Shown: one piece after another, positions 5,276 to 35,226 of the stretch
Position numbering within the stretch: position 1 is the stretch's first letter
Layout of the letters: each line of letters begins with the position of its first letter
Source: Limibacter armeniacum
GTDB taxonomy: Bacteria; Bacteroidota; Bacteroidia; Cytophagales; Flammeovirgaceae
Assembly: GCF_036880985.1 (NCBI RefSeq)
Contig: NZ_JBAJNO010000001.1
Location: 62,001 to 126,000, forward strand
Length of the DNA: 64,000 nt
Direction of reading: 5' to 3'
Made by a program: the position numbers and the translations under genes
Notes under the pieces: model-generated
What the model was told of the DNA's origin: nothing
Database searches by the model: none
Seen by the model: the letters and a program-made list of their open reading frames with translations, nothing else

Positions 5276-8236
5276 ATGAAAAGGCTACTTTCATTGTTTG
5301 TCGCCATGCTGTGCATGGTGATAACAACGTTCGCACAAGAGCGAACTATTTCCGGAACAGTTACTGATGGAGCGACTCCACTACCTGGAGTTACAATTTT
5401 GGTAAGTGGAACTTCTCAAGGGACAGTTACTAATTTTGATGGCGAGTTTACGCTCGTAGTTTCTCAATTGGCTACAGATATTGAGGTGAGGTTTTTGGGC
5501 TATAAAACGGAAATTATACCAATTAATAATCAGACAACTTTTAAGATCATTCTAGAGGAAGATGCTATCCAATTACAGGAGGTTGTTGTCGATGGATATT
5601 CAACTCAGGATATCAAAAAAATGACCTCTTCAGTGGAAGTAGTAGATGCTGCCGCTTTGGAGCAGCGCCCATTAACTACTTTTGATCAGGCACTACAAGG
5701 ACAGGCTTCAGGAGTAAAGGTCAATATGAATAATAAAGCGCCTGGTAGCCCTGCTACAGTAAAAGTGAGAGGCACAGGCTCACTAGCAGGAGCAAACAAT
5801 GCACTATTTATTGTTGATGGTATACCAGTTGATGGGGAGACTTTTGCCACCCTGAATCCTAATGATTTTGAGTCATATCAGGTGCTGAAAGATGCTTCTG
5901 CCGTAGCAATGTATGGGTCCAGAGGAGCAGCAGGTGTTGTAGTCGTTACAACCAAATCAGGTAAAAATTCAGGCAAGACCCAATTCAGGCTTAACTCTTA
6001 TGTTGGTATCGCAGAGGCAACTTCAAATGGTTTTGATATGATGAACTCACAACAACGTGTTGAGTTCGAGAAAATTATTCAAGATGGCCCCTCTTACAAC
6101 CCAGGTGGGTATAGTTATATGCTACAGGAAGTAGACACTGAGCACACTTCTGATTGGTATGACATGTTTTTCCGTACAGGAATTACACAGTCACATCAGT
6201 TGAGTGTTTCAGGTGGGGATGATGACAGTAAATTCTATCTTTCTGGTAACTACTTTAATCAGGAAGGTGTCGTGATTAAGACAGGAATGGAGAGAGGTAC
6301 ATTAAGGGCCAACTTCTCACAGAAGTTAAATCGTTTTTCACTTGATCTCAAGACACAATTGGCAATCGCTAGGGTAGATGATGTTTACAAAAATGATGCA
6401 TACAATGTGATGACCATGCTTCCCTACTACAAAAGTCAGGATGAGAACGGCAACTATCTACCTTTGGATTATAATGGAAGCAACGCTTTTGAAAGAATTG
6501 AAAAAGGTGAAAATTCTCGCAACTTATTGGGTATCGTATCTAGTTTGAAACTGACATACGACTTGACTGATAACCTAAAAGTATGGTCGAGAACGGGTAT
6601 TGAATATGATCAGAAAAAGACAAGGGATATTATTTCTCCTAACAGTTTGTATGCGAATTTGACACCTGGTGATAAAGGAAGTTTAGCTTCTTATACTTAT
6701 CAGGACTACCTGTTAAGCGGTACCAATGCATTACAATACAGAAAAAACTTTGGCGATCACGGATTGTCATTAGGCGTTTATCAGGAATATATCCTGGAGG
6801 ATGGAAATAGCGAAGGCTTTACTGTATATGGGTTTGATAATGAAACAACTCCAGCATTGCACTCTCCGGATGTTAATGTACCGTTGGTAAGTGGGGTGTA
6901 TGACAAGCGTTTTACACAGCTATCGTACTTTGCGAGTGCTGATTACGATTACAAATCAAAATATATCCTGAGAGCGGTGTTCCGTAGGGATGGAACATCA
7001 GTATTTGGAGCCAATAACCAATGGGGTAACTTCTATAGCGTTGGTGGTGGATGGGTTATTTCAGATGAGACTTTTATGGAGGGAGTTAACTTTGTCAACA
7101 ACCTGAAGTTGAGAGTGTCTTATGGTACTGTAGGTAACCAAGGAGCCATTAGCCGATATGGATCTTTGGCTACACTGGCTCCAATCAGTTACAATGGTCA
7201 AAATGGTATTTATAGAGATAAGCCTTCTAACCCAGATCTACAATGGGAAGTATCCAAGCAAGCAAACGTAGGTGTAGACTTTGACTTGTTTGATGCAAAA
7301 CTGGGAGGTAGTTTGAACCTTTATAATAACCTTTCTTCGGAGTCCTTTATCAATACACCATTGCCATATACATCAGGCTTTGTGAGCCAAACTCGAAACA
7401 ATGCTCGTCTAAGAAACAGAGGTATAGAACTCTCACTTAGCTCAAGGTTAGTATTGACTAGAGATTTCCAGTTGAAGGTTTTTGGTAACGTATCATACAA
7501 CCAGTCAGAGGCATTGGAACTTAACGATGAGGGAATCGAGTACAGGGGATATGGTCAGTTGCAGATTGATGAGTTAGCCAATATCGAAGGGTATCCATTG
7601 TTTATGGCGCGTTCTTATGACAAGGCAGGTGTTGATCCCGCTACAGGACGACTACTGTTCAGAAACGCTGATGGCTCTATTGTGGACGACAGAAGTTTGG
7701 CAGAACGTGTGATTATCGGTACGACAGAAGCACCTTGGTTTGGAGGCTTCGGAACAAACATGTCTTGGAAAGGACTGACATTAAATGTCTTGTTTAACTG
7801 GGAACAGGGAGCAACCAAACTGAACTGGGACCGTGTTGAGATCGAGCGTGTATTATATGCAGATCAGAACCATTCTGCAAGATTGCTGACAGATGCATGG
7901 ATGAAACCTGGAGACATTGCTTCCTTACCGAAGCCAGAAGCAGGACAAGAACTTTTTGCTACGTCTGACTATTGGGAAGATGCTTCATTCCTAAGGCTGA
8001 AAAATGTGAGCCTTTCTTATTCATTACCGATCAGCTTGGCAGAAAAAATGGGTATGGACAATGCAAGAATTTATGTGCAAGGTGAAAACCTGATGACTTT
8101 CACATCATTCTCTGGAATCGACCCTGAAATGTCAACACCGTATCAGTCTACTAACAATGGTACATCATCAGGAGGTGAAAGCAATGCTTACCCACTTAGC
8201 AGGGTATTCACAGTAGGACTTGATCTAACATTCTGA
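5276..8236 (+). CDS. SusC/RagA-type TonB-linked outer-membrane protein
   Basis: A TonB-dependent outer-membrane importer of 986 residues. It has a cleavable signal peptide (residues 1-20, ending FAQ), a carboxypeptidase-regulatory-like domain (about 22-100) starting RTISGTVTDGATPLPGV, then a plug domain. The plug holds LQEVVVDGYSTQDIKKMT and VKVRGTGSLAGANNALFIVDGIPVDG, and the C-terminal beta-barrel ends in Phe (GLDLTF). The usual VVVGYGTQ box reads VVVDGYSTQ. SusD follows after 21 bp and a lipoprotein after that, with no glycoside hydrolase. SusC/SusD (RagAB) pairs import glycans or oligopeptides. The lack of enzymes and the divergent cyanophycinase-like gene make a peptide substrate plausible, but this is inference. 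Confidence 0.95.
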   Translation: MKRLLSLFVAMLCMVITTFAQERTISGTVTDGATPLPGVTILVSGTSQGTVTNFDGEFTLVVSQLATDIEVRFLGYKTEIIPINNQTTFKIILEEDAIQLQEVVVDGYSTQDIKKMTSSVEVVDAAALEQRPLTTFDQALQGQASGVKVNMNNKAPGSPATVKVRGTGSLAGANNALFIVDGIPVDGETFATLNPNDFESYQVLKDASAVAMYGSRGAAGVVVVTTKSGKNSGKTQFRLNSYVGIAEATSNGFDMMNSQQRVEFEKIIQDGPSYNPGGYSYMLQEVDTEHTSDWYDMFFRTGITQSHQLSVSGGDDDSKFYLSGNYFNQEGVVIKTGMERGTLRANFSQKLNRFSLDLKTQLAIARVDDVYKNDAYNVMTMLPYYKSQDENGNYLPLDYNGSNAFERIEKGENSRNLLGIVSSLKLTYDLTDNLKVWSRTGIEYDQKKTRDIISPNSLYANLTPGDKGSLASYTYQDYLLSGTNALQYRKNFGDHGLSLGVYQEYILEDGNSEGFTVYGFDNETTPALHSPDVNVPLVSGVYDKRFTQLSYFASADYDYKSKYILRAVFRRDGTSVFGANNQWGNFYSVGGGWVISDETFMEGVNFVNNLKLRVSYGTVGNQGAISRYGSLATLAPISYNGQNGIYRDKPSNPDLQWEVSKQANVGVDFDLFDAKLGGSLNLYNNLSSESFINTPLPYTSGFVSQTRNNARLRNRGIELSLSSRLVLTRDFQLKVFGNVSYNQSEALELNDEGIEYRGYGQLQIDELANIEGYPLFMARSYDKAGVDPATGRLLFRNADGSIVDDRSLAERVIIGTTEAPWFGGFGTNMSWKGLTLNVLFNWEQGATKLNWDRVEIERVLYADQNHSARLLTDAWMKPGDIASLPKPEAGQELFATSDYWEDASFLRLKNVSLSYSLPISLAEKMGMDNARIYVQGENLMTFTSFSGIDPEMSTPYQSTNNGTSSGGESNAYPLSRVFTVGLDLTF

Positions 8237-18033: not shown

Positions 18034-18075
18034 AACTAATAAGGGTATCTCATCGATACCCTTATTAGTTTTATT
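18034..18075 (+). terminator. Strong terminator (copy 1 of an inverted pair)
   Basis: A perfect 16-bp stem (18034-18049 with 18055-18070) with loop TCATC is followed by TTATT, 24 bp after the oxidoreductase stop. A reverse-complement near-copy with loop GATGA lies at 35189-35226, at the far end of the sugar-utilisation locus. Confidence 0.9.
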
Positions 18076-18580: not shown

Positions 18581-19333
18581 ATGAGAGATTTTGAAGTATT
18601 TGAGACTGTTAGAAAGAAAATAGATGGAAAGAGCAGTGAGGCTTTTTACAGCCAACTCTATCGTGTAGTAAAGGAGGAAATTGAAAGTGCCAACATGAAG
18701 GAAGGTACATTATTACCAAGAGAGATTGATATCGCAGAGTTATTTGGTGTATCGAGATTGACTGTGAAAAAGTCTATGGATATGCTGGTCAATGACGGCT
18801 TAGTAGTGAAGAAGAAAGGTTACGGTACTACAGTCATTGGTAAAAAGGTGGTGTCTACTTCATTAGAAAACTGGATGAGTTTTTCGAAAGAGATGAAAGG
18901 AAAAGGTATCTCTATCAGAAACTCTTACTTTGAAGTTGAAAATACCATTGCTCCTGAAAGAGTATGTTCTTTTTTTGAAGCAGATAAGAAAGATAATGTA
19001 CTTAAGATAGCAAAAGTAAAATCAGATGAGACTGCTAACCTTGTGTACTTTGTCTCTTACATTAACCCGAAGTTCAATGTGGATGTGATGGAAGATTTTT
19101 ATCAGCCACTATATGACATTCTCAAACAGCATTACGGACTCTACCCAAAACGCTCTTTTGAACATATCAGAGCAATGGCTGCTGACGACTTTTTGGCAGA
19201 CAAGCTTAATATCCAAAAAGGAGCTCCAATTCTTTGTAGGGAAAGAAGAGTGTATACACAGGATGGAGAGCCATTGGAATATAACTACGGTTATTACAGA
19301 GGGGATAGGATCGTTTGTGAATTAAGGGTTTGA
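18581..19333 (+). CDS. GntR-family regulator with UTRA ligand-binding domain (HutC type)
   Basis: A 250-residue regulator. The wHTH lies at about residues 20-90 (FYSQLYRVVKEEIES, REIDIAELFGVSRLTVKKSMDMLVNDGLVVKKKGYGTTV). A UTRA domain follows (about 105-245), ending with the typical GAPILCRERRVYTQDGEPLEYNYGYYRGDR. HutC-type UTRA domains bind sugar phosphates or amino-sugar metabolites. The gene opens a 16.5-kb mannoside-type locus and is its probable regulator. Bacteroidota more often use SusR, HTCS or ECF regulators for such loci, so a GntR/UTRA regulator suggests sensing of an intracellular sugar phosphate. The ligand is inferred. Confidence 0.92.
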   Translation: MRDFEVFETVRKKIDGKSSEAFYSQLYRVVKEEIESANMKEGTLLPREIDIAELFGVSRLTVKKSMDMLVNDGLVVKKKGYGTTVIGKKVVSTSLENWMSFSKEMKGKGISIRNSYFEVENTIAPERVCSFFEADKKDNVLKIAKVKSDETANLVYFVSYINPKFNVDVMEDFYQPLYDILKQHYGLYPKRSFEHIRAMAADDFLADKLNIQKGAPILCRERRVYTQDGEPLEYNYGYYRGDRIVCELRV

Positions 19334-19407
19334 TTTATACCTGAACTTCAGGACATAAGAATACACAACTAATAATCAATTCAATTACATAATTTAAATT
19401 AAAACAC

Positions 19408-20187
19408 ATGCGAAAATTCACATCATTTTTCGTCGGGATTGCTATGTTCCTGTCCTTGGTGGCCTGCGATCAAGAGGAGCAAATGGCAGCACCAAAAATT
19501 ACGCTATCTAAAACGCAAGTTACAGCCAAAACAGGTGAAATCGTAACCATCTCTGCTCACATTGAATCAGAAGCGGGAGTAAAGGCTTTAGTCGTTACGC
19601 CTAGATTGGATAGTGAGGAAAAGGCAGCAGAAGTAATCACCATTTCTGAGTCATCACAGACAATGGCTGATATTGAAGTCCCTTATGAAGTAGCGGTTGA
19701 GGATGCTGAAGGTGTACTGGTACTGAATTTTGCTGTAGTGGATGAGATGGGAGCAAAGGCAGAGGCAGAAACTGTATTTGAGATTGAGTTGAGTACAACA
19801 GATATCCTGACAAGAAACAACTACCGTTGGGCTTATGTGTCAGAGACTATTGCTTCAGGCGAAAACATTATGTCTGAAGGTAAGGATGATACAACACTGG
19901 CATTCCACAAGGATGGCTCTATCACATTTGACATTGGTGAGAAAGATGCTGACGGACTGGAGACACTGGCCAGTTACACAGCATGGGAGTTGAATGAGGA
20001 TGAGACTGTGTTGACACTGACAAGAGTGGACTGGTTAGGTGAGACTACTTATGAAGAGTATACACTGGAGTCAATTGATAAGGACGAGTTGAAAGTTTCA
20101 ACTACGGTGGATTTGTCATTTTTCGGTTACTCAGAAAACGAGAAAGTGACAACAACCTTTGGATCTCAAGCTTACGTGGCTGAGTAA
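19408..20187 (+). CDS. Lipoprotein with Ig-like and lipocalin-like regions
   Basis: A 259-residue lipoprotein (signal with LVACDQ, Cys20). Residues about 30-130 look like an Ig/Big-type beta-sandwich (KITLSKTQVTAKTGEIVTISAHIES). Residues about 140-259 have the alternating strands of lipocalin-like domains (NYRWAYVSETI, TTLAFHKDGSITFDIGEKD, ATWELN-type turn, TLTRVDWLGETTYEEYTLESID). It lies 74 bp after the GntR gene and before the second susC, so it is probably a surface-exposed ligand-binding or accessory lipoprotein. No closer family is recognised. Confidence 0.75.
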   Translation: MRKFTSFFVGIAMFLSLVACDQEEQMAAPKITLSKTQVTAKTGEIVTISAHIESEAGVKALVVTPRLDSEEKAAEVITISESSQTMADIEVPYEVAVEDAEGVLVLNFAVVDEMGAKAEAETVFEIELSTTDILTRNNYRWAYVSETIASGENIMSEGKDDTTLAFHKDGSITFDIGEKDADGLETLASYTAWELNEDETVLTLTRVDWLGETTYEEYTLESIDKDELKVSTTVDLSFFGYSENEKVTTTFGSQAYVAE

Positions 20188-20199
20188 TCATATATAAAT

Positions 20200-20343
20200 C
20201 ATTGCTTGTCTTCGGATCTTAATCATTAGGTATAACAATATACATGCGAGTAAGTGTGCAAGTTTTTAGGCGTTGCTTATATCATCTAGTTATGTCTAAT
20301 AAAAAAAGTGGATTGGAACAGGTAGGTCTGAAGACAAGTAATG
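20200..20343 (+). ncRNA. Structured RNA element upstream of the second susC (unrecognised)
   Basis: A 20-bp helix pairs 20200-20219 with 20324-20343 without any mismatch in RNA: 17 Watson-Crick and 3 G-U pairs. Inside it a second uninterrupted 12-bp helix pairs 20225-20236 with 20289-20300 (10 Watson-Crick and 2 G-U). A short third helix (GTAAG 20250-20254 with CTTAT 20276-20280) is possible. All five departures from DNA symmetry are G-U pairs in the plus-strand transcript, which suggests selection on RNA rather than a decaying DNA repeat. It lies 13 bp after the lipoprotein stop and 166 bp before the susC ATG, with no T run. It could be a leader regulator, a processed small RNA or an mRNA-stability element. 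No known family is recognised. Confidence 0.6.
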
Positions 20344-20508
20344 TGAATTGTATCGCTGGATTTCTGCTGAAAAGGTAAGGATTTCGTGAAATTATCAGGT
20401 TTTAAAAAAATAAATAATACATACATATAACACTGATAATTCTCTTGAGAAAAGATTAAGCTAGTAATTCGTGTGTTTGAAATTTCATTATCATTAATAC
20501 CAAGTTGG

Positions 20509-23500
20509 ATGAAGCTCTATAGATACCTAGTCTTTTTATTGGCATTGATATGTTGTATAAAGGGAAGCAGTGCATATGCACAGGGAGAGAAAATTGTCAA
20601 AGGAACAATCAAATCCGTGACAGGAGAATTACTGATTGGTGTAACAGTAGCAGAAGAAGGAACTACCAGCGGTACCATTTCAGACCTGAATGGGGAATTC
20701 AAGTTGGCGGTTTCGGAAGGAGCAACTCTGAAAGTCAGCTATATTGGATACCAGACACAAACGGTAGAAGTCAAAAATCGTAGTTTTATTGAAGTTATAC
20801 TGGATGAGGATGTTCAGCAATTACAGGAACTTGTGGTTGTTGGTTACGGAACCATGCGAAAAGATGACCTGACAGGTGCTGTTACCTCTGTGAAAGCCGA
20901 AAATATTAAGGCGAATGCGGGGGCTTCTTTGGATCAGGCACTGCAAGGTATGGCAGCTGGTGTACAGGTGACCCAGTCATCAGGACAGCCGGGGGCTTCT
21001 ACTTCCATCAGAATCAGAGGAATTACATCCATCAATGGCAGCAACGAACCGCTGTATGTAATTGATGGCGTACCTATTATAACCAGCTCGGGTGATATGA
21101 GTACAGGTGCAACGAAAAGTGCTTCACTGAATCCGTTAGCTTCCATTAACCCCAATGATATTGCCTCTATCGAAATCCTGAAAGACGTTTCCCAGACGGC
21201 TATTTATGGTGCAAGAGCTGCCAATGGTGTGATCGTGGTGACAACGAAAAAAGGAAAAACAGGAAAAACAGTCATCTCTTTTGACTCTTATGCAGGTGTA
21301 CAGCAGGTATCTAAAAAGATGGAGATGCTGAATGCACAGCAGTTAGCTGAATTGGGCAATGAAGCGACAGACAATGCGGGATTACCTCGCAGACCGATTT
21401 TTGCAAGTCCACTTTCTTTGGGTGAAGGAACTAACTGGCAGAATGAGATTTTCCAACAGGCGGCAATACAGAGTTATCAATTATCAGTTTCTGGTGGCGA
21501 TCAGGCTACAAGGTTTTCTGTGTCTGGTGGGTATTTCACACAGGATGGTATTATCATCGGTTCAGATTATGTGAGAGGAAACATCAGAACCTCTTTGGAT
21601 CATAGAATCAATGAGAAATTCAAGATTGGTACTAATCTTACCTATGCTAGGACAATATCTAATGGTGTAGTGACCGCAACTGGTGAAGGTGGTATTGGAG
21701 GCTCTGGTGTTGTGACTTCAGCCTTAAGTTTCAACCCTGCACTTTCAGTAATGGATGCATCAGGTGAATATACCTATAAAGACAACCTTACATCGGCAGC
21801 ACCAGGTAATCCAGTAGTTGACGCTTTGAAAAACCTGAATCACTCGCAGAATAACAGGTTTATCGGAAGCCTGTATGCCGATTACCAGATTCTGGATGGA
21901 TTATCGTTCAAGACCAGTGTGAGTGGTGACGCTTACTTCAACAAGGAGATGCAGTTTATCCCGAACGATATCCGAAGAGGAGAGCAATCAGGTGGACAAG
22001 CTACACATGGGCTGATCTATGGTTATACTTGGCTTTGGGAAAACGTAGCATCGTACATCAAGCAACTGAATGATGCCAACAGGGTCAATTTTGTAGCAGG
22101 ATATTCCATGCAGTCTTTCAACTCTGAGGCTACAATTGCTTCCACATCTGACTTTGATGATAATAGATTGACCTATCATGCACTTCAGGCAGGTAAGATG
22201 AAAGGACTGACCTTGTCTGCTTCAAATGCATGGCAGATGCAGTCATACTTTGGAAGACTTAACTACTCATTGAACAATCGCTACATCTTTACAGCAACTG
22301 GTAGGGTAGATGGTTCATCCAAATTTGGAAAGAACAATAAATATGGATTCTTCCCTTCTGCTGCCTTGGCATGGAGAGTATCGGAAGAAACATTCTTTGA
22401 TGGGATTGAATCAATCAACGAACTGAAATTCAGATCAAGCTATGGCATTACAGGTAATCAGGGTATTCCTGCTTACAGTGCACAAGGTAGACTGGAGCAG
22501 ACAACAGCTTACCTGAATAATCAGGAGACCATCTCAGGAGCTGGCCCTATCAGCTTGGCTAATCAGGATTTGAAGTGGGAAAAAACAAAGCAGTTCAATA
22601 TTGGAATGGACATGGGCTTGTTTGATGATAGGGTTCAGATTACTGCAGATTACTACCAGAAATATACATCTGACTTGTTGCTTAATACCCCAATGCCATA
22701 CTATTCGGGATTCAAGTCGGCATATATGAATGTGGGTGACATGGAGAACACAGGTATTGAATTGACCCTCTCAGGTTTTGTGGCAGATACAGAAAAATTC
22801 CAATGGAAATCGGACTTCAACATCTCAAGAAACACCAACGTTGTGACTGACCTTGGTGAGTTGGGAGAGGATGGTATTCCGTCAGAACCGATGCTGGGTA
22901 TCACAGGTTGGTCAAGGATTTCAGAAGGCAAGCCAATTGGAACCTATTACGGTTACATTACAGATGGAATTTTCCAGCTGAACGATAACCTAGACAATGC
23001 ACCATACTTTACAGGAGCAAAACCAGAAGCAGGTGATAGAAAATACAAGGACTTGAATGGTGATGGGGTTATTGACTCAAAAGATATCACTGAGATCGGA
23101 AATGCTACGCCTGACTTTATCTTCGGTTTTACCAATACCTTCAAGTACAAGCGCTTCACATTGATGGTGAATACACAAGGTTCAGTGGGCAACGACCTGG
23201 TCAACTTCAACAAATTCAATTTGGAAAACCTGTCAGGAACGACGAATGCGTCTTCAGCAGTATTGGACAGATGGACGCCTGAGAATCCAACCAACGATAT
23301 GCCGAAAGCGGATGCTACTCCTCCTACCAATGTGTTGTCTTCGGCGCAAGTTGAGGATGGATCATACTGGAGAATCAAGAACCTGAAACTGGGATATGAC
23401 CTTCCGGAAAACATCACTAATAAAGCAGGTATGACTTCATTCCATGTGTATGCAAGTGTACAGAATCTTTATACGCTGACTAACTACACTGGCTTTGATC

Positions 23501-23601
23501 CTGAGGTGAATATGTTCTCGAGCGTGACCAGCATGGGAGCGGACTATGGTTCATATCCTACAGCAAGAACATTCCTGATCGGCGCAAACATCACATTTTA
23601 A
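20509..23601 (+). CDS. SusC-type TonB-dependent outer-membrane protein of the mannoside locus
   Basis: A TonB-linked importer of 1,030 residues from the ATG at 20509. An upstream GTG at 20473 would add 12 residues before the signal peptide and is rejected. After the signal peptide (ending AYAQ) comes a carboxypeptidase-regulatory-like domain (IVKGTIKSVTGELLIGVTV). The canonical LQELVVVGYGTMRKDDLTGAV box and the plug (IRIRGITSINGSNEPLYVIDGVPI) follow, then the barrel ending in NITF. The SusD gene starts 12 bp after its stop. With the downstream enzymes, this pair most likely imports a mannose-containing oligosaccharide. Confidence 0.95.
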   Translation: MKLYRYLVFLLALICCIKGSSAYAQGEKIVKGTIKSVTGELLIGVTVAEEGTTSGTISDLNGEFKLAVSEGATLKVSYIGYQTQTVEVKNRSFIEVILDEDVQQLQELVVVGYGTMRKDDLTGAVTSVKAENIKANAGASLDQALQGMAAGVQVTQSSGQPGASTSIRIRGITSINGSNEPLYVIDGVPIITSSGDMSTGATKSASLNPLASINPNDIASIEILKDVSQTAIYGARAANGVIVVTTKKGKTGKTVISFDSYAGVQQVSKKMEMLNAQQLAELGNEATDNAGLPRRPIFASPLSLGEGTNWQNEIFQQAAIQSYQLSVSGGDQATRFSVSGGYFTQDGIIIGSDYVRGNIRTSLDHRINEKFKIGTNLTYARTISNGVVTATGEGGIGGSGVVTSALSFNPALSVMDASGEYTYKDNLTSAAPGNPVVDALKNLNHSQNNRFIGSLYADYQILDGLSFKTSVSGDAYFNKEMQFIPNDIRRGEQSGGQATHGLIYGYTWLWENVASYIKQLNDANRVNFVAGYSMQSFNSEATIASTSDFDDNRLTYHALQAGKMKGLTLSASNAWQMQSYFGRLNYSLNNRYIFTATGRVDGSSKFGKNNKYGFFPSAALAWRVSEETFFDGIESINELKFRSSYGITGNQGIPAYSAQGRLEQTTAYLNNQETISGAGPISLANQDLKWEKTKQFNIGMDMGLFDDRVQITADYYQKYTSDLLLNTPMPYYSGFKSAYMNVGDMENTGIELTLSGFVADTEKFQWKSDFNISRNTNVVTDLGELGEDGIPSEPMLGITGWSRISEGKPIGTYYGYITDGIFQLNDNLDNAPYFTGAKPEAGDRKYKDLNGDGVIDSKDITEIGNATPDFIFGFTNTFKYKRFTLMVNTQGSVGNDLVNFNKFNLENLSGTTNASSAVLDRWTPENPTNDMPKADATPPTNVLSSAQVEDGSYWRIKNLKLGYDLPENITNKAGMTSFHVYASVQNLYTLTNYTGFDPEVNMFSSVTSMGADYGSYPTARTFLIGANITF

Positions 23602-23613
23602 TTGAAGGTAATC

Positions 23614-25107
23614 ATGAAAATATATAAGGCATTGATATTGGCTGCCTTGCTGGGTAGCGGTTGCAGCTCCTTTCTGGATGAGGAGCCGATAAGTGAAATC
23701 ACACAGGAAAACTATTACAAGACTGAGCAGGATGCTATTGCAGCAGTCAACGCACTGTATGATTATATCAGTGTGGGTAACTCAGGATTATGGAGTGGTG
23801 AGTTTGGTGGGGTTTACTACAATGACTACTGGATAACACAAGGTCTCTGCTCTGATGAGATGAAGACTGCTTCAGCCCCTGGAAGTTATTATTACCAGCT
23901 CTCCACTTTCTCATTCAACAGTAGCAACAGCGGATTGGAGAAGGTATGGAAAGACTGTTACAAGACAATCAATACAGCCAATCTGGCGATTGAGAATATT
24001 CCTCCAATCCAGATGGATGAAGAGCTGAAGGGAAAACTGTTGGGTGAAGCTAAGTTCTTTAGGGCAATGCTCTACTTCGATCTGGTAAGGATGTATGGGG
24101 ATGTTCCATTGAGAACTTCACCAACCAAAGGAGTGAATGATGTACAGGGAAGCAGAACACCATCTTCAGAGGTATATGCGCAAATAGAAAATGACCTGAT
24201 GGATGCTATCAGCCAATTGCCAGCAAAGGGAAGTGCAGACTTGGGAAGGTGTACTTCAGGTGCAGCAAAGGCACTGCTGGCAAAAGTTTACCTGACAGAG
24301 GGGAAATATGCTGAATCGGCAACCATATGCAAAGAACTGATTGATTCAGGGAAGTATCAGTTGTTCAGTGATTTTAAAGACCTGTTCAAGATCAGTAATG
24401 CGAACAGAGAAGAGATCATCTTCTCCATTCCATTCAGTAATACTTTGAGTCAAGGTTGGAAGGGGAGCCAGTTCAATGTGCAGTTATTGCCGTCAGGACT
24501 GAACAAGGCTGGTGAAGGTCCTGAGAATGCACAGGGATGGCAGAAACCAACCATGGACTTGTATAACAGCTTTGACAACAGCGACAGAAGAAAAGATGTA
24601 AGCTTTATCACTTCTTACAAATACAGTGATGGCTCATCAGTGTCATTTGAACCACACATTGCCAAGTGGTGGGACATGGAGGCTGAGCCTAGAGCCAATC
24701 AGTCTGATCAGGATTATATCTACTTGCGCTATGCGGATGTATTGCTGATGTATGCAGAAGCACTGAATGAAGCCAATGGCGGACCAACAGCAGAAGCCTA
24801 TGAAGCAATCAATCAGGTAAGAACTAGGGCTAGGTTTGATGGGGTGAATGTGCTGAACATCCTGCCGGATCTTTCAGGACTAGGTTATGAAGATTTCAAG
24901 GAAGCTATTCTGGAGGAAAGAAGACATGAGTTTGTAGCAGAGGGACACAGGTGGTTTGACCTTGTCCGTAATGGAAAGCTGATGGAGAAAGTGAAGCTGG
25001 CAACAGATAAGACTGAGAGCCAAGTAGCAGATTTCCACAATCTTTTCCCGATTCCACAAAGGGATCGTGAACTGAACTCTAGCCTGACACAGAATCCGGG
25101 GTATTAA
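23614..25107 (+). CDS. SusD-family glycan-binding lipoprotein
   Basis: A 497-residue SusD homologue starting at ATG 23614; an upstream TTG at 23602 is less likely. The lipobox ends at Cys17 (LLGSGCSSFLDEEP). Family features include AKFFRAMLYFDLVRMYGDVPL, LRYADVLLMYAEALNEANGG and ILEERRHEFVAEGHRWFDLVRNGK near the C-terminus. It pairs with the preceding SusC. The ROK kinase gene follows after 26 bp, so transcription continues. Confidence 0.95.
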   Translation: MKIYKALILAALLGSGCSSFLDEEPISEITQENYYKTEQDAIAAVNALYDYISVGNSGLWSGEFGGVYYNDYWITQGLCSDEMKTASAPGSYYYQLSTFSFNSSNSGLEKVWKDCYKTINTANLAIENIPPIQMDEELKGKLLGEAKFFRAMLYFDLVRMYGDVPLRTSPTKGVNDVQGSRTPSSEVYAQIENDLMDAISQLPAKGSADLGRCTSGAAKALLAKVYLTEGKYAESATICKELIDSGKYQLFSDFKDLFKISNANREEIIFSIPFSNTLSQGWKGSQFNVQLLPSGLNKAGEGPENAQGWQKPTMDLYNSFDNSDRRKDVSFITSYKYSDGSSVSFEPHIAKWWDMEAEPRANQSDQDYIYLRYADVLLMYAEALNEANGGPTAEAYEAINQVRTRARFDGVNVLNILPDLSGLGYEDFKEAILEERRHEFVAEGHRWFDLVRNGKLMEKVKLATDKTESQVADFHNLFPIPQRDRELNSSLTQNPGY

Positions 25108-25133
25108 TAACTGAACAAGAAATTTAGAGCGCT

Positions 25134-26066
25134 ATGTATACGATTGGTTTAGATCTAGGAGGAACTAAAATAAAGATAGGACTGATTCATAACGGTCAGA
25201 TTGTAGAGGAAATAGAGGTGGATGCAGCGTCACACCTTGGTCTTCAGAACAGGCTGCCAGTATTGGAGAAGGAAATTAACCAGCTACTGGAAAAGCACGG
25301 TGCAAATGATTTTCAAGGTATTGGGATCTCCATTCCGGGTATTGTGGATGTGAATCGTGCAAGGTTGCTGACAATCAACGATAAGTATAACGATGCCGTG
25401 GATATTGACCTGAAGGCTTGGGCTAAAAGTGTTTGGAACAAACCCTTGTTTATGGAAAATGATGCCCGCAGTGCGATGGTTGGTGAGTGGAAATATGGAG
25501 CAGGGAAAGGGCATGACAACGTGGTGATGATGACGCTCGGCACAGGACTGGGCACTTCAGCTGTAATTGAAGGCAAGGTCGTGAGAGGACAGAACTTTCA
25601 GGCAGGGATTCTGGGCGGACACTTTATTGTGAATTATAAAGGTCAGCAATGCAACTGTGGAAATGTCGGTTGTGCTGAGGCGGAAGCTTCCAGCTGGAAT
25701 TTACCCAACATTATTGCAGCGCTGGAAGAGAAATCAGGAAAGCTGCCAGAAGCTGATAAAGTTGATTTTGCACAGCTATTCACTTGGTATCGTGAAGGAA
25801 ATGCCGCTGCTAAATATGTCGTAGACCATTGCATCAAGATCTGGTCTACTACGGTAGCCAACCTTGTATATGCCTATGACCCTGAGGTGGTCATCATTGG
25901 AGGTGGTATCATGAGAAGTGCTGATATTATACTGCCGGCTATTAAAGAAAACCTCAAGTCATTCGGATGGGTGCCGTTCGATAAGATTGAACTAAAAACC
26001 GCTGAATTTGTACATGCATCTGCATTGCTCAGTGCTGAATATTTCTTGAGTGAACTAAACAACTAA
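25134..26066 (+). CDS. ROK-family sugar kinase
   Basis: A cytoplasmic hexokinase-like kinase of 310 residues. The phosphate-1 motif is IGLDLGGTKIKIGL at the N-terminus. MENDARSAMVGEWKYGAGKG and TLGTGLGTSAVIEGKVVRG follow. The ROK zinc site reads CNCGNVGCAEAEAS, and the catalytic and sugar-binding HxxxxxxGxxxxCxCGxxGCxE signature is recognisable as GGHFIVNYKGQQCNCGNVGCAE. In this operon, with a mannose-6-phosphate isomerase next to it, mannose (or glucose) is the expected substrate. ROK members also act on fructose and N-acetylhexosamines. Confidence 0.92.
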   Translation: MYTIGLDLGGTKIKIGLIHNGQIVEEIEVDAASHLGLQNRLPVLEKEINQLLEKHGANDFQGIGISIPGIVDVNRARLLTINDKYNDAVDIDLKAWAKSVWNKPLFMENDARSAMVGEWKYGAGKGHDNVVMMTLGTGLGTSAVIEGKVVRGQNFQAGILGGHFIVNYKGQQCNCGNVGCAEAEASSWNLPNIIAALEEKSGKLPEADKVDFAQLFTWYREGNAAAKYVVDHCIKIWSTTVANLVYAYDPEVVIIGGGIMRSADIILPAIKENLKSFGWVPFDKIELKTAEFVHASALLSAEYFLSELNN

Positions 26067-26086
26067 ACCAATTCAATTCTTCTACC

Positions 26087-27868
26087 ATGACTATTAGAGA
26101 GAATCAAAAAAATAAATACTGTAATACACCAAACTATGACAAGTTTCCTTTTACATCGATTGATACTGAAGAGAAAATTGTAAAAAGTTGGGAGTCAATT
26201 GCACAGACCATTGGCGATTTGGCCGCCAAAAAAGGTGGAGACAAGGCGGTAATTGTGATCGAAACCTATCAGGGGGTGATGGACAATGAGCTTATTGCGG
26301 GACTTTCATCGATTGGTCATACAGCCTTCATCAATACAGCAGAATTGTTTCTTTCTGAAGATAAGATTAGGGAAATCACCTACAAAGATATCACAGATGA
26401 CCGCATCTTCGGTTTTATGACACGTCTGAAGATAGATGATTTTATGAATGCGGATAAGCTTGCGGCAGCACGCCAGCATGTGGAAAAGGCGGATGGTCCT
26501 GTGATCGTGTATGGTACGGGTGCGTCAAGAGTAGCGGCAAACCCTTCTGTACTGGTGTATGCGGACATGACCCGTTGGGAAATTCAACTGAGAATGAGAG
26601 CCAATAAGGTGGCAAACCTTGGCTTATCCAACTTTGAGGATGCTTTCTCTGAGCAATATAAGAGAGGATTCTTTCTTGATTGGAGAGTCTGTGACAGATT
26701 GAAAAAGGAGCTGATGCATAGCTGGGATTTTGTGTTGGATACCAACATTGAGAATGATCCGAGGATGTTGGCAGGCAGTGCCATTGAGCAGGGCCTGAAA
26801 GACCTGACCAAACGTCCATTCAGGGTAGTGCCTTTCTTTGATCCGGGACCATGGGGTGGCCAGTGGATGAAAGATGTTTGTGATCTTGACAAGGAGCAAG
26901 AGAATTTTGCGTGGTGCTTTGACTGTGTTCCGGAAGAAAATAGCCTAACCTTCAAGGTGGGAGAGGATACGATTCAGGTTCCATCCATCAACTTGGTATT
27001 TGACCAACCTAAGGGGCTGATGGGAACGCCAGTCTATTCAAGATTCGGTGATGAATTCCCGATCAGGTTTGACTTCCTTGATACCATGGAAGGCGGTAAC
27101 CTGAGCTTGCAGGTACACCCGACCACGGAGTTTATCCGTGAGGAGTTCGGTATCCCTTATACACAGGATGAGAGCTATTATATGCTGGATGCCATTGAAG
27201 GAGCTGATGTGTATATCGGTCTGAAAAACGGCATTGATCCGAAAGAAATGATCAGTGACCTACATCGTGCACAAAATGAGGGCGTCAACTTTGATGCAGA
27301 AAAATATATCAACAGGCTGCCAGTCAAGAAGCATGACCACATTCTGATTCCAAACGGGACAGTGCACTGTTCAGGCGAGGGCGGAATGGTACTTGAAATC
27401 TCTGCAACACCATACATCTTCACATTCAAGTTGTGGGACTGGGGTAGATTGGGAATGGATGGCAAACCAAGACCAATCAACATCGAAAGAGGTGAAAAGG
27501 TGATTGACTGGACAAGGGATGAGGACTTTGTGAAAAAAGAACTTTTCAATGTGATTGAGCCTGTGGCTGAAGGTGAAGGATGGAGAGAGGAAAGGACAGG
27601 CTTGCACAGAAATGAGTTTATCGAGACCCGCAGACATTGGTTCTCCACTTCTGTCCATCATGATACCAATGGTATCGTAAACGTACTGAACCTGATTGAA
27701 GGAAGGGAAGCAATCGTGGAAAGCCCAACAGGTGCATTTGAGCCGTTCGTGGTACATTATGCCGAAACTTTTATCGTGCCTGCAGAAGTAGGTGCCTATA
27801 CTATACGTCCTTACGGCGAAAGCGAAGGTAAGGAGATTGCTACACTGAAAGCCTATGTAAGGGTTTAA
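26087..27868 (+). CDS. Class I mannose-6-phosphate isomerase with a long N-terminal extra domain
   Basis: It interconverts mannose-6-phosphate and fructose-6-phosphate. The catalytic zinc-cupin part is in the C-terminal half. Metal ligands are visible as Gln342 and His344 (LSLQVHP), Glu362 (ESYYMLD) and His427 (IPNGTVHCSGEGG). At 593 residues it is much longer than the usual 300-400. The first 230 residues form a separate domain resembling a P-loop uridine-kinase-like fold (GPVIVYGTGASRVA, VLVYADMTRWEIQLRMR) without a clear Walker A motif. It is co-transcribed with the ROK kinase (20-bp gap) and the sugar porter (12-bp gap). The isomerase call is firm; the role of the N-terminal domain is unknown. 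Confidence 0.88.
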   Translation: MTIRENQKNKYCNTPNYDKFPFTSIDTEEKIVKSWESIAQTIGDLAAKKGGDKAVIVIETYQGVMDNELIAGLSSIGHTAFINTAELFLSEDKIREITYKDITDDRIFGFMTRLKIDDFMNADKLAAARQHVEKADGPVIVYGTGASRVAANPSVLVYADMTRWEIQLRMRANKVANLGLSNFEDAFSEQYKRGFFLDWRVCDRLKKELMHSWDFVLDTNIENDPRMLAGSAIEQGLKDLTKRPFRVVPFFDPGPWGGQWMKDVCDLDKEQENFAWCFDCVPEENSLTFKVGEDTIQVPSINLVFDQPKGLMGTPVYSRFGDEFPIRFDFLDTMEGGNLSLQVHPTTEFIREEFGIPYTQDESYYMLDAIEGADVYIGLKNGIDPKEMISDLHRAQNEGVNFDAEKYINRLPVKKHDHILIPNGTVHCSGEGGMVLEISATPYIFTFKLWDWGRLGMDGKPRPINIERGEKVIDWTRDEDFVKKELFNVIEPVAEGEGWREERTGLHRNEFIETRRHWFSTSVHHDTNGIVNVLNLIEGREAIVESPTGAFEPFVVHYAETFIVPAEVGAYTIRPYGESEGKEIATLKAYVRV

Positions 27869-27880
27869 AAATCTAAAACT

Positions 27881-29287
27881 ATGAACAACAAAACATCTAA
27901 CTCCGGATTGACTGGTTCTGTACTGGTTTTTTCCCTGATTGCTGCCATTGGTGGACTGCTGGGTGGTTTCCATACGGCGGGTATTTCTGGCGCTATCGGT
28001 TTCCTTCAGGCTCATTTTGAGCTGAATGCTTCCATGACAGGTTGGGTAACCTCTTCCATGCTGATCGGGTGTGCTGTCGGGGCGATGGGAACAGGTGGAT
28101 TTGCCAGCAAGTATGGCAGAAAAAAACTCCTGTTTCTGACTGCGGTGATTTTTGCGGTTTCCTCTATCGGAGCAGCTTACCCTATCTCACTCAACATGCT
28201 GGTAGCTGCTCGTATTTTGGGTGGTTTAGGAGTTGGGATGGCGTGTGTGGTTTGCCCTATGTATATCTCGGAAATATCTCCAGCCGCTAAAAGGGGTACC
28301 ATGGTAACCTTATTCCAATTAGGAATGGTGATCGGTATTCTCCTAGCTTATTCTGTCAACTCGTACATTGCAGGATTGGGCGATGAAGCATGGAACATAG
28401 CAGAAGGTTGGAGATGGATGTTTGCCTCAGAGGCAATCCCTTCTGTAGTATTTTTCATGACATTGTTTCTGTTACCGAATAGCCCAACCTGGTTGATGGA
28501 AAAAGGTGAAACCGAGAAGGCTGTAAATGTCCTGAAAAAGTTAAGGGAAGCATATTATAATGAAGATGAAGTAAAAGAGATTGCAGAAAGCTTGAATGCA
28601 GGAACAGATGTGCAGAAAGCTTCTATCGGTGACTTCTTCGGAAAGAAATACCGTTTTGTGGCGCTATGCGGATTGGCATTGGCAATTTTCTCTCAGGTGA
28701 CGGGTATCAATGCGGTACTCTATTATGCACCTGAAATCTTTAAGAGAACAGGTGAGGCAGGAACAGATGCGGCACTGATGCAGACGGTAGTGGTGGGCGT
28801 GATTAACTTTGCCTTCACGATCGTATCTATCTGGCTGATCGACAAGGCAGGCCGCAGGGCATTGCTGCTGGTAGGTTCGGCAGGTATGACACTTTCACTG
28901 GGTGTCGTGGCTTATTGCTTCTATGCAGGACAACTTGGAGGCATGCTGATTTTTATCAGTATCCTGTCTTATATAGCATTCTTTGCCATCTCGTTGGGGC
29001 CGGTTACGTTCGTGCTGATCTCGGAGATTTTCCCGCAAAGAATCCGATCCATTGGTATGTCAGTAGCAACACTGGTGCTGTGGGTAAGCGTGTTTATCAT
29101 CTCGCAGCTGTTCCCAATTCTACTGAACGGCGTAGGTGAGGCAATCACCTTCGGTGTGTTTATGGTGGCTTCATTCCTGGCATTTGTCTTTGTCCTGAAA
29201 TTCATTCCAGAAACAAAAGGGAAATCATTCAAGGAGATAGAACAGTACTGGGTGAAAGAAGGCGAACAACTGGTTGAAGCGAACTAA
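27881..29287 (+). CDS. Sugar porter family MFS transporter (XylE/GLUT-like)
   Basis: A 12-helix inner-membrane transporter of 468 residues. Sugar-porter signatures are present. They are GGFASKYGRKKLLFL after helix 2, GLGVGMACVVCPMYISEISPAAKRG, the central loop PNSPTWLMEKG, QVTGINAVLYYAPEIF in helix 7, DKAGRRALLL, and PETKGKSFKEIEQYW after helix 12. It probably imports the monosaccharide released in the periplasm, which the ROK kinase then phosphorylates. Gaps to both neighbours are 12-14 bp. Confidence 0.95.
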   Translation: MNNKTSNSGLTGSVLVFSLIAAIGGLLGGFHTAGISGAIGFLQAHFELNASMTGWVTSSMLIGCAVGAMGTGGFASKYGRKKLLFLTAVIFAVSSIGAAYPISLNMLVAARILGGLGVGMACVVCPMYISEISPAAKRGTMVTLFQLGMVIGILLAYSVNSYIAGLGDEAWNIAEGWRWMFASEAIPSVVFFMTLFLLPNSPTWLMEKGETEKAVNVLKKLREAYYNEDEVKEIAESLNAGTDVQKASIGDFFGKKYRFVALCGLALAIFSQVTGINAVLYYAPEIFKRTGEAGTDAALMQTVVVGVINFAFTIVSIWLIDKAGRRALLLVGSAGMTLSLGVVAYCFYAGQLGGMLIFISILSYIAFFAISLGPVTFVLISEIFPQRIRSIGMSVATLVLWVSVFIISQLFPILLNGVGEAITFGVFMVASFLAFVFVLKFIPETKGKSFKEIEQYWVKEGEQLVEAN

Positions 29288-29301
29288 TCAAATTAGAAGG
29301 A

Positions 29302-31287
29302 ATGAAAAGAATGAAAATATGGGGACTATCGCTGTTTGCCTGCCTTATTGGCTGGCAGGCAGCGGCACAGGACCTGAAGCTTTCTTCTTACTACACTGAC
29401 CATTTGGTCTTGCAAAGGGGAGAAGCTAATGATATTTCAGGAAAGGCGAAACCCAATGCAAAGGTCACGGTACTGCTGGACGGAAAGAAGTTTACAGCCA
29501 AGAGCAATGACGGAGGCACATGGACAGTGACACTTCCTGCACAGCATGCTGGAATAGGGCATACACTTCAGGTGCTTTCATCGGATGAAAAGCTGGTGAT
29601 TAACGATTTAGCTTTTGGTGATGTGTGGATCTGTGCCGGGCAGTCTAATATGGAATATCCTGTAGGGTATTTCCCTTATGCGGATGAAGAGGCTAAGAAT
29701 GCACAGAACGCAGCCATCAGCTATTTCAATGTAAAGGATGAGATGGATGGAATGCCTCGTACGGAAGTGCCTGGAACTGGCTGGAGTCCTGCAACAGGCG
29801 AGCTGGTGAAACAGTTGACGGCTGTGGGGTATTTCTTTGGCCGCAATTTGGCAGATTCTCTTCAGGTACCGATCGGACTGGTATCATCCAACTGGAGCGG
29901 TTCTGCTATTGAGCCTTGGATGTCGGAGGAAGCAATTTCGGCTTTTCCTGAGTTTGAAAGAGTGGTGAATGAAAACCCTCATAAGTCATTTGCCCAGATC
30001 AACCAAGAGTTGTCAGCATACAGAAAAACTTGGGACAAGGAGCATTATTTGGTAGGTCAGGGAATGGAGGAGAAATGGTATTCGCCAATAACAGACTTCT
30101 CCGATTGGGAAAACATCCAGTTGCCTAACTACTGGGAAAATGCAGGCCTGAAAGACTTTGATGGGGCTGTCTGGTTCAAGACAACCTTTGACAAGCCTGC
30201 CAATGCGCAGGGTGACTCATTGGTACTGGACCTGAACCTGATTGATGACTATGACATTGCTTGGGTAAATGGTGTGAAAGTGGGCGAGACATTCGGCAAC
30301 CAGAACTGGAGACACTATAAGGTGGCATTTTCTGACCTCAAAGAGAAAGGGAATATACTGGTGCTAAGGGTATTTGATATCGGTGGCAACGGAGGCTTGA
30401 ACTTTCACCCGCTTTGGGCTACGGACATCCTGAAAGGCGAATGGGTCTGCAAAGCAGGGCAGTCCATCAATGCAGATACTTTCCCCAAACCAGCGATTGT
30501 CAATGCAAGCCCATTCAGTTATCCGACTGTCCTTTACAATGCGATGATTGCACCTTTGAAAGGCCTAAAAGTAAAAGGGGCTATCTGGTATCAGGGAGAA
30601 TCCAATGCCATGAGAGCTGCTGACTACGACAAATTGCTTTCGGCCATGATCAAGGACTGGAGAAAGACATTTGGCAAAGCCGAAATGCCTTTCTACATCG
30701 TGCAGCTTGCCAACTTCAACTGGGAAGACAATGCGCCGAAGGCCAGTGACTGGGCAGAGCTGAGAGAAGCTCAACAACGTGTAGCCGATGAGATGGAGAG
30801 TGTGGAATTGATTTCTACCATCGAGATTGGGGAGATGTTTGATATCCATCCGAAGAACAAGCAAGAAGTAGGCAGGAGATTAGCCATCAGGGCTTTGGAT
30901 AAAACCTATAAGCACTCAATGGCTGTGACAGAAGGCCCACGTTTTGAGTCGATGAAGATAGAAGGAAACAAGATCATCATCACTTTTAAGGAGTCGGGCA
31001 GTCCGATCAAGACAACTGACAAGTACGGATATGTAAAAGGTTTTACGATGGCAGCAGCCGATGAGCAGTTCCATTGGGCAAAGGCACAAATCATTTCCGA
31101 CTATCAGATAGAGGTTACCTGTGATGCCGTTGCAGCGCCTGTTTCAGTAAGATACGCTTGGGCTAATAATCCAGGTGAGCTAAACCTGTACAATCAGGAG
31201 AATCTTCCGGCACATCCATTCAGATCAGATGATTGGAAAAGAAGTACAGAAGGAATCCATTTTTCACTAGAATTTTTAGGACTCTAA
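29302..31287 (+). CDS. Secreted SGNH carbohydrate esterase (sialate O-acetylesterase-like)
   Basis: A 661-residue exported enzyme (signal peptide ending AAAQ; an alternative start at 29311 is equally possible). The nucleophile is Ser115 in ICAGQSNMEYP, with IWYQGESNA downstream and the Asp514/His516 pair in DIHPKNK. An inserted jelly-roll domain (about residues 270-375, FDGAVWFKTTFDKP ... LRVFDIGGNGG) resembles the sugar-binding domain of GH2 enzymes, as in the sialate O-acetylesterase family. It removes acyl groups from sugars. No sialic-acid catabolic genes are present, so its substrate here is more likely an acetylated mannose-rich glycan (inference). Confidence 0.88.
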   Translation: MKRMKIWGLSLFACLIGWQAAAQDLKLSSYYTDHLVLQRGEANDISGKAKPNAKVTVLLDGKKFTAKSNDGGTWTVTLPAQHAGIGHTLQVLSSDEKLVINDLAFGDVWICAGQSNMEYPVGYFPYADEEAKNAQNAAISYFNVKDEMDGMPRTEVPGTGWSPATGELVKQLTAVGYFFGRNLADSLQVPIGLVSSNWSGSAIEPWMSEEAISAFPEFERVVNENPHKSFAQINQELSAYRKTWDKEHYLVGQGMEEKWYSPITDFSDWENIQLPNYWENAGLKDFDGAVWFKTTFDKPANAQGDSLVLDLNLIDDYDIAWVNGVKVGETFGNQNWRHYKVAFSDLKEKGNILVLRVFDIGGNGGLNFHPLWATDILKGEWVCKAGQSINADTFPKPAIVNASPFSYPTVLYNAMIAPLKGLKVKGAIWYQGESNAMRAADYDKLLSAMIKDWRKTFGKAEMPFYIVQLANFNWEDNAPKASDWAELREAQQRVADEMESVELISTIEIGEMFDIHPKNKQEVGRRLAIRALDKTYKHSMAVTEGPRFESMKIEGNKIIITFKESGSPIKTTDKYGYVKGFTMAAADEQFHWAKAQIISDYQIEVTCDAVAAPVSVRYAWANNPGELNLYNQENLPAHPFRSDDWKRSTEGIHFSLEFLGL

Positions 31288-31291
31288 TACC

Positions 31292-32407
31292 ATGAAAAGA
31301 AATATAGCAATGCTGGCAGCAGTAGGTTTGGTGACATTTTCTTGCCAGCCAAAAGAACAGCAGACATTTACTACTCAAAATATTGACAGTGATTCCGTTT
31401 TTGTCGATTCCGTATTCACTGCAAAGATGATGGTAGACCATGAAGGAGGCATCACAGGAGCTGATGGTACTTACTCCATTCCGCTGAAAGATGGCAAGTC
31501 ACTGTTTCTTTTCGGTGATACATTTACACATCAGGTAACGGACAATTCGAGAGAGGAACTGAAACCTGCCTTTATCCACAATAGCTTTATGCTAGCAGAT
31601 CAGGAGTCGGGACAACTAAAACCAATTTACCCTGTTGAGCATGGCAAGCATGAGGCAATAGCTGAACCGAAAGAGGAAGGACACTGGTATTGGCCAGGTA
31701 CTGGCTATGAGGAGGATGGAAAATTGTATGTTTTCATGTCTGACTTCTACCAGAAGACGGATGACCCTATGTGGGGTTTTGCATGGTATGCCACAGACCT
31801 GCTGGTGTATGATATGAATGAATTTTCTTTGCTGAAGCAGGAGCGTATTCCTTTTTCACAGGAAAATGATGTGCATTACGGTCATGCCGTGACAAGGGAT
31901 GGTGAGTATGTATATATCTATGGAGCAAAATCCGTGGATGGGCATTCTCAGGCACACGTTGCCAGAGCTAAGCATGAGGATATTTTTACTGACTGGGAAT
32001 TCTTCAATGGAACGGAATGGGTGAAAGACCCTAAGCAATCACAACCGATGAAAGGACTAGAAACGGTCGAGGTATCTGAGCAGTTCAATGTAGTAAACAT
32101 GCATGGAAAGTTTGTACTTCTCACACAGCAGAGAGGTATCGGAGAGCCGGAGATTTTCACGTTCACTTCTGACAGTCCGACAGGTAACTGGGACAACAAG
32201 GTTTCCATCTACAAGACAACGGAACAGGGCTTTGGCAAGAATACCTATGCCTATAATGCCATGATCCATCCGCAGTTTGAGAAGGATGGAAGAATCTATG
32301 TTTCCTACAATGTAAATTCCTTGAAGTATGAAGAGGTTTTTGCAGATGCAAGCATCTACAGACCGAGATTCATTAGTGTTCCTGTGAAGAAAATATTGGG
32401 TGAATAA
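31292..32407 (+). CDS. Lipoprotein with five-bladed beta-propeller (DUF4185/DUF5005-like)
   Basis: A 371-residue lipoprotein (signal with FSCQP, Cys18). The domain resembles five-bladed propellers of the GH43/DUF4185 kind: repeated strands and aromatic clusters (SLFLFGDTFTHQ, HWYWPGTGYEEDGKLYVFMSDF, VHYGHAVTRDGEYVYIYGAK, NVVNMHGKFVLLTQQRGIGEPEIFTFTSDSPTGNW). It may be a glycosidase or a binding protein, and I cannot assign catalytic residues. The start is 4 bp after the esterase gene, and its stop TAA overlaps the ATG of the GH92-like gene by one base, indicating translational coupling. Confidence 0.75.
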   Translation: MKRNIAMLAAVGLVTFSCQPKEQQTFTTQNIDSDSVFVDSVFTAKMMVDHEGGITGADGTYSIPLKDGKSLFLFGDTFTHQVTDNSREELKPAFIHNSFMLADQESGQLKPIYPVEHGKHEAIAEPKEEGHWYWPGTGYEEDGKLYVFMSDFYQKTDDPMWGFAWYATDLLVYDMNEFSLLKQERIPFSQENDVHYGHAVTRDGEYVYIYGAKSVDGHSQAHVARAKHEDIFTDWEFFNGTEWVKDPKQSQPMKGLETVEVSEQFNVVNMHGKFVLLTQQRGIGEPEIFTFTSDSPTGNWDNKVSIYKTTEQGFGKNTYAYNAMIHPQFEKDGRIYVSYNVNSLKYEEVFADASIYRPRFISVPVKKILGE

Positions 32408-35188: not shown

Positions 35189-35226
35189 AACTAATAAGGG
35201 TATCGATGAGATACCCTTATTTACTT
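35189..35226 (+). terminator. Terminator at the end of the mannoside operon (inverted copy 2)
   Basis: A 12-bp perfect stem (35193-35204 with 35210-35221) with loop GATGA lies 68 bp after the GH92-like stop. Its reverse complement matches about 33 bp of the terminator at 18034-18070, including the loop (TCATC). Confidence 0.8.

Follow-up and report, generated by a model that had tools for sequence, protein, structure and literature searches.

A 144-nt hairpin-forming segment between a lipoprotein-like gene and susC of Limibacter armeniacum, tentatively read as an intercistronic 3′-UTR hairpin

Results

Gene context of the segment

A set of genes running from a GntR-type regulator to a GH92 enzyme lies on the plus strand of the 64-kb window (the whole stretch of 64,000 nt of L. 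armeniacum DNA that was analysed). GH92 enzymes are alpha-mannosidases, and this gene fits the label "mannoside" given to the locus by an earlier note based on the letters of the window. The segment under study (20200–20343, plus strand) can form a hairpin and occupies part of the gap between a lipoprotein-like ORF and susC. It starts 12 nt past the lipoprotein stop codon and ends 165 nt ahead of the susC ATG. The features are as follows.

18034–18070, plus strand: terminator-like hairpin with a T run (stem of 16 bp, loop of 5) before the GntR gene
18581–19333, plus strand: GntR/UTRA regulator gene (PF07702, 3e-25; PF00392, 3.6e-14)
19408–20187, plus strand: lipoprotein-like gene (259 aa) preceding the element, with its lipoprotein signal judged by eye and no Pfam family matched
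20200–20219, plus strand: 5′ arm of the outer helix (mean pairing probability 0.985)
20225–20236, plus strand: 5′ arm of the inner helix (12 bp, at chance level)
20244–20378, plus strand: 44-codon ORF spanning loop and 3′ arm, probably incidental
20266–20273, plus strand: 5′ arm of a competing 8-bp helix (partner 20292–20299; probability 0.71)
20289–20300, plus strand: 3′ arm of the inner helix, which the competing helix shares in part
20324–20343, plus strand: 3′ arm of the outer helix, with no T run behind it
20509–23601, plus strand: susC (ATG at 20509, mechanical ORF from GTG at 20473; TIGR04056, 923 bits)
23602–35124, plus strand: susD, ROK, a gene without Pfam match, sugar transporter, SASA esterase, DUF4185 and GH92 genes, past susC
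35193–35221, plus strand: terminator-like hairpin with a T run past the GH92 gene, identical to the reverse complement of 18038–18066

The lipoprotein–susC junction and three others within the gene set were checked for T-run hairpins. None was found in the lipoprotein–susC junction, even at a loose cut-off, and a weak hairpin that reaches the T count (−13.1 kcal/mol) is present at 23640–23668, near the start of susD. T-run hairpins thus flank the set from GntR to GH92 and are missing from the junction that holds the element, which we counted in favour of a polycistron. No E. coli-type promoter, the only promoter type covered by this search, and no terminator-like site was found in 19300–20700. 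Inexact matches to a Bacteroides-type promoter occur at 20472 (7/10) and, within the loop of the element, at 20251 and 20287 (8/10 each), none of them exact and their score being without a control; susC could therefore have a promoter of its own, which speaks against a shared transcript. A coding role for the 44-codon ORF was rejected (no Pfam match; next match in the genome at E 1.83).

The two flanking hairpins contain exact 29-base reverse complements (18038–18066 and 35193–35221), with the same 12-bp stem and complementary loops, and no further copy with up to 3 substitutions was found in 2.03 Mb of the genome. Elsewhere in the window, a 16-bp helix with 3 G-U pairs and a loop of 79 (5150–5260) ends about 15 nt before the ATG of the other susC gene (5276–8236), and a DDE transposase gene (PF13359) is carried by the minus strand at 55544–56464. 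No tRNA or tmRNA was found in the window.

Folding of the segment

Two uninterrupted helices are located in the segment where the earlier note had placed them. The outer one pairs 20200–20219 with 20324–20343 over 20 bp (17 Watson-Crick and 3 G-U pairs) around a loop of 104 nt, and the nested one pairs 20225–20236 with 20289–20300 over 12 bp, including 2 G-U pairs. Folding of the 144 nt, as proposed in that note, gave −41.6 kcal/mol (z −4.85), a value that none of 200 shuffles matched. The inner helix has a mean pairing probability of only 0.16, because its 3′ arm favours the 8-bp partner at 20266–20273. The constrained minima of the two alternative folds are 0.5 kcal/mol apart, at −41.6 with the 8-bp competitor and −41.1 with the 12-bp helix. 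The fold is also strand-dependent, 20195–20348 reaching −42.3 kcal/mol on the plus strand versus −23.8 kcal/mol on the minus strand. With a 104-nt loop and no T run after its 3′ arm, the element is not an ordinary terminator, as had been stated before, and this candidate was rejected.

All five departures from DNA symmetry had been reported to form G-U pairs, at odds of 1 in 32, and this had been taken as a sign of selection. The argument is largely circular, since a helix search that allows only G-U pairs stops at the first A-C, and it overstates the case; selection is not borne out. Extension of the 9-bp exact core, with every transition tolerated and the first transversion as the stop, yielded 3 G-U and 0 A-C, that is 1 in 8.

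Statistical rarity of the helices

The length of the outer helix was reached in none of 3000 dinucleotide shuffles of its own gap (20188–20512) and in one of 20 shuffles of the whole window. Its stacking energy (−33.6 kcal/mol) was attained in 4 of 300 whole-window shuffles when the plus strand only was considered, and in 3 of 300 with a loop of at least 31. Scored by Watson-Crick pairs alone, the DNA inverted repeat was equalled or bettered by 60 of 3000 shuffles of its gap, and other gaps in this genome attain at least that score. As such a repeat is common, only the helix completed by G-U pairs stands out; the excess is therefore on the RNA level, and the strand is the one used by the flanking genes. 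On that level the outer helix is unusual, moderately so when the whole window is taken as background.

Total fold energy does not set the element apart: among 4258 sampled windows (144 nt, both strands, step 30), 138 are at least as stable, as are 3 of the 334 with less than 20% coding overlap. The inner helix is no rarer than expected by chance, with 113 of 500 shuffles of the enclosed 104 nt giving one at least as stable. The nested arrangement described earlier thus holds in part: its outer helix is beyond chance in the gap, whereas its inner helix is not and is outcompeted by the 8-bp one.

Hairpins in other gaps of the genome

A census of 1.26 Mb of the genome yielded 138 co-directional gaps of 200–700 nt. 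Genes for the gap comparisons and the long-loop helix counts were called by a simple longest-ORF script, and the energy and T-run cut-offs were set after the element had been seen. T-run hairpins, counted over the entire gap and hence beyond the near-stop zone too, were present at the loose cut-off in 104 gaps. Of the others, 8 had a hairpin that lacks a T run, 24 had no hairpin, and 2, one of them the gap of the element, had a long-loop helix only. At this cut-off (−11) the 104 real gaps compare with 64 on the reverse strand and a shuffle mean of 35.4; at −16 kcal/mol the corresponding values are 80, 32 and 2.0. T-run terminators are common in this genome. Nevertheless, a strong T-run hairpin (−16 kcal/mol) is missing in 58 of the 138 gaps, so that its absence is not rare and constitutes weak evidence for an operon.

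In its position the element resembles 3′-end hairpins: helices starting within 60 nt of the stop codon (−16 kcal/mol or better) were found in 86 of the 138 gaps, and 71 of them have loops of up to 30 nt. A T run accompanies 59 of these 71, versus 4 of the 15 with longer loops. The four near-stop helices that rank next in strength and have a loop above 30 are followed by a T count of at least 5 in three cases and of 4 in one. In two gaps similar to that of the element, long imperfect hairpins (94 and 87 nt) end in T-rich tails.

Long-loop helices (loop 81–160 nt, −26 kcal/mol or better) numbered 8 in intergenic and 3 in coding DNA in a first set, though 87% of it is coding. A second set of 768 kb, mostly unselected, gave 1 intergenic and 7 coding helices of the same class, and the intergenic enrichment did not recur. 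In both sets together (2.03 Mb), three helices with such loops reach −33.6 kcal/mol or better, all intergenic, and the two others besides the element have similar copies elsewhere. No helix of this loop size in coding DNA reached −30 kcal/mol in the 2.03 Mb.

Copies, relatives and known families

The element is single-copy in its genome. The next best of 12 whole-genome DNA matches covers 23 bp (C2:144468–144490, E 0.0039); it was rejected as a second copy, as it sits inside a 559-aa ORF and has no second arm. A covariance model built from the one sequence detected no second copy in the genome (next E 1.29) and nothing convincing in a search of 1.26 Mb of it (next match E 1.4) or, with stricter filters, in 116 relatives (best E 0.144). 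DNA searches of 57 relatives, the same genus not being among those listed, gave nothing convincing either, with weak matches of about 20–41 bp in 9 genomes besides its own (best E 7e-4). Plasmids and phages gave no match, and neither did viral contigs, which were searched with a single exact pattern of 20 nt. A MITE present in many copies, named in the earlier note as what would overturn its RNA reading, is thus ruled out in this genome by both kinds of search, and we rejected it.

The element matched no covariance model of Rfam 15. Two matches below the threshold (E 0.39 and 3.2) fell outside it. The earlier note, too, had recognised no known class. For a new RNA class, nothing speaks beyond the absence of an Rfam match. 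In the parts of the open-licence literature reached by a limited search, no description of such an element was found.

The neighbouring genes were followed in other genomes. Across 389 other genomes of the order, 14 gave matches to the lipoprotein, with 28% identity for the top-scoring one. Gaps past its three best homologues (five loci scanned, one strand, unoriented) measure 8, 11 and 123 nt and so leave no room for such an element. The closest SusC relative has 47% identity (45% in Rudanella among named genomes). Upstream of susC relatives, 58 loci besides its own (29 + 29) were considered; many of their gaps are below 60 nt, L085 lacks a gene call, and L091, L094 and L096 lack an upstream gene. 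None of the readable gaps holds a comparable long-loop helix, the best with a loop above 30 having 11 bp and −24.9 kcal/mol. An intergenic region homologous to that of the element did not emerge from any of the collections searched.

Several repeats were noted in passing. A dispersed REP-like intergenic family with CGATGGG/CCCATCG and CCCTTTCAGGG/CCTGAAAGGG hairpins occurs at several sites of the genome (L110:9692–9883, L146:12806–12955, L156:16769–16929 and L142:17958–18091). A 173-nt inverted-repeat element (L133:168–340) has whole or partial copies on contigs 8 and 9 at 68–92% identity, and an intergenic stretch of 258 nt with perfect 20-bp terminal inverted repeats (L116:17293–17550) is single-copy in the genome.

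Discussion

We tentatively favour an intercistronic 3′-UTR hairpin, part of a susCD polycistron, by which the upstream message would be protected or processed. An RNA transcribed with the operon, as suggested in the earlier note, is favoured because of the position, the absence of a terminator and a signal stronger on the RNA than on the DNA level. The 144-nt hairpin would be transcribed as the 3′-UTR of the GntR–lipoprotein genes, within a probable polycistron that runs from GntR and the lipoprotein through susC and susD to GH92. The message might be cut in or just past the hairpin, possibly by RNase III (the genome encodes one) acting on the 20-bp helix. Alternatively, a different endonuclease could act on the A/T-rich sequence that follows, or part of the transcripts could be ended at the hairpin by Rho. 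The helix would then stop 3′-to-5′ exonucleases, and the regulator/lipoprotein and susCD messages would decay separately, so that their levels could differ. If this holds, the ratio of the regulator and lipoprotein of a PUL to its SusCD importer would, in this one case, be set by an RNA hairpin and not by a promoter or terminator, in a bacterium outside the gut models. Being single-copy and having no known relatives, the element says little beyond its own locus.

The main live rivals of this processing or protection reading are chance and an inverted-repeat relic. It is somewhat unlikely, though far from negligible, that an A/T-rich intergenic stretch merely happens to contain a long complementary pair without function. 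The site was chosen as an oddity of its window, shuffles of that window do reach the length and stacking energy of the outer helix on one strand, the inner helix and the Watson-Crick-only symmetry are ordinary, and the second set showed no surplus of long-loop helices outside genes. The outcome of the T-run control likewise takes some confidence away from processing or protection and adds slightly to chance. Against chance stand the 3000 gap shuffles, which never reached the helix, and the 2.03 Mb in which comparable helices are missing from coding DNA and the two other intergenic ones of this strength have similar copies.

A relic of a small MITE- or REP-like mobile element with inverted repeats, of which this would be the sole recognisable copy, is an unlikely origin that nonetheless deserves weight. 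When 15 strong long-loop intergenic segments, the element included, were compared with the 1.26 Mb, five matched other stretches, four of these being one repeat family, and a sixth has further copies; the 258-nt segment with perfect terminal repeats is as solitary as the element. The lack of any second copy, of plasmid or phage matches and of viral matches to the one 20-nt pattern searched argues against a relic, as does the absence of a target-site duplication, no direct repeat abutting the arms in flanks judged by eye.

That the hairpin is a decayed or atypical terminator of the GntR–lipoprotein unit seems rather improbable. It has a terminator-like position, and two similar gaps hold long imperfect hairpins, 94 and 87 nt, whose tails are T-rich. 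Large terminator hairpins do occur in this genome, judged by the T counts behind the strongest near-stop helices with long loops, so that the element could be a decayed one, which weighs against processing or protection. Its missing T run and 104-nt loop, however, set it apart from near-stop helices, among which T runs go mostly with short loops.

We consider it improbable that the element acts on susC as a leader switch or a small RNA, with 20289–20300 pairing either with 20225–20236 or, in part, with 20266–20273 under the control of a ligand or RNA-binding protein. The near-equal energies of the two folds agree with such a switch, and sRNA control of susC messages is known in Bacteroides from FopS (PMC11697453). 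However, the switching helix is at chance level, the element ends well before the susC ATG, neither an Rfam match nor, in 19300–20700, an E. coli-type promoter or terminator-like site was found, and the FopS RNAs, as described there, consist of a single-stranded 5′ stretch and a terminator hairpin, the like of which the element lacks. A lineage-specific cis-acting RNA, in which 20289–20300 would pick between its two near-isoenergetic partners inside the 20-bp clamp and thereby decide read-through of the GntR–lipoprotein message into susCD, appears very improbable to us.

Flipping of promoters between inverted repeats is known in Bacteroidales, and the two best inexact Bacteroides-type promoter matches of the gap sit in the loop and face susC; an invertible switch, with the arms as recombination sites and a 104-bp promoter segment between them, is nevertheless highly improbable, as the arms agree as DNA at only 17 of 20 positions, none of the 26 distinct window ORFs scanned with Pfam (5 without match) is a site-specific recombinase, and the exact TAnnTTTG is absent from the gap and shows only a mild strand bias before genes of this genome (77 forward, 52 reverse).

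Comparison with known systems

The element shares with intrinsic (Rho-independent) terminators its place after a stop codon and differs from them by its lack of a T run and its 104-nt loop, loops of up to 30 nt prevailing in near-stop helices of like gaps (71 of 86). Like the REP/MITE-like inverted repeats of the genome it is intergenic and has long arms around an interior of tens to hundreds of bases; it is single-copy, whereas similar copies elsewhere exist for six of the 15 segments compared. The FopS sRNAs of Bacteroides resemble it in that they act on susC messages (PMC11697453). FopS and GibS are both described as combining a single-stranded 5′ portion with a terminator hairpin (PMC11697453, PMC7366714), and a hairpin of the latter kind is absent from the element.

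The intercistronic hairpin that we favour comes closest to the stem-loops of selective RNA processing and stabilisation (SRPS) in E. coli, where hairpin stability shifts transcript ratios within operons, as reported in PMC10667835. It departs from these stem-loops, as presented there, by its 104-nt loop and in being known from sequence, with a predicted shared transcript and cut. In common with them it is a stable stem-loop between co-directional genes, positioned right past the upstream stop codon and devoid of a T run.
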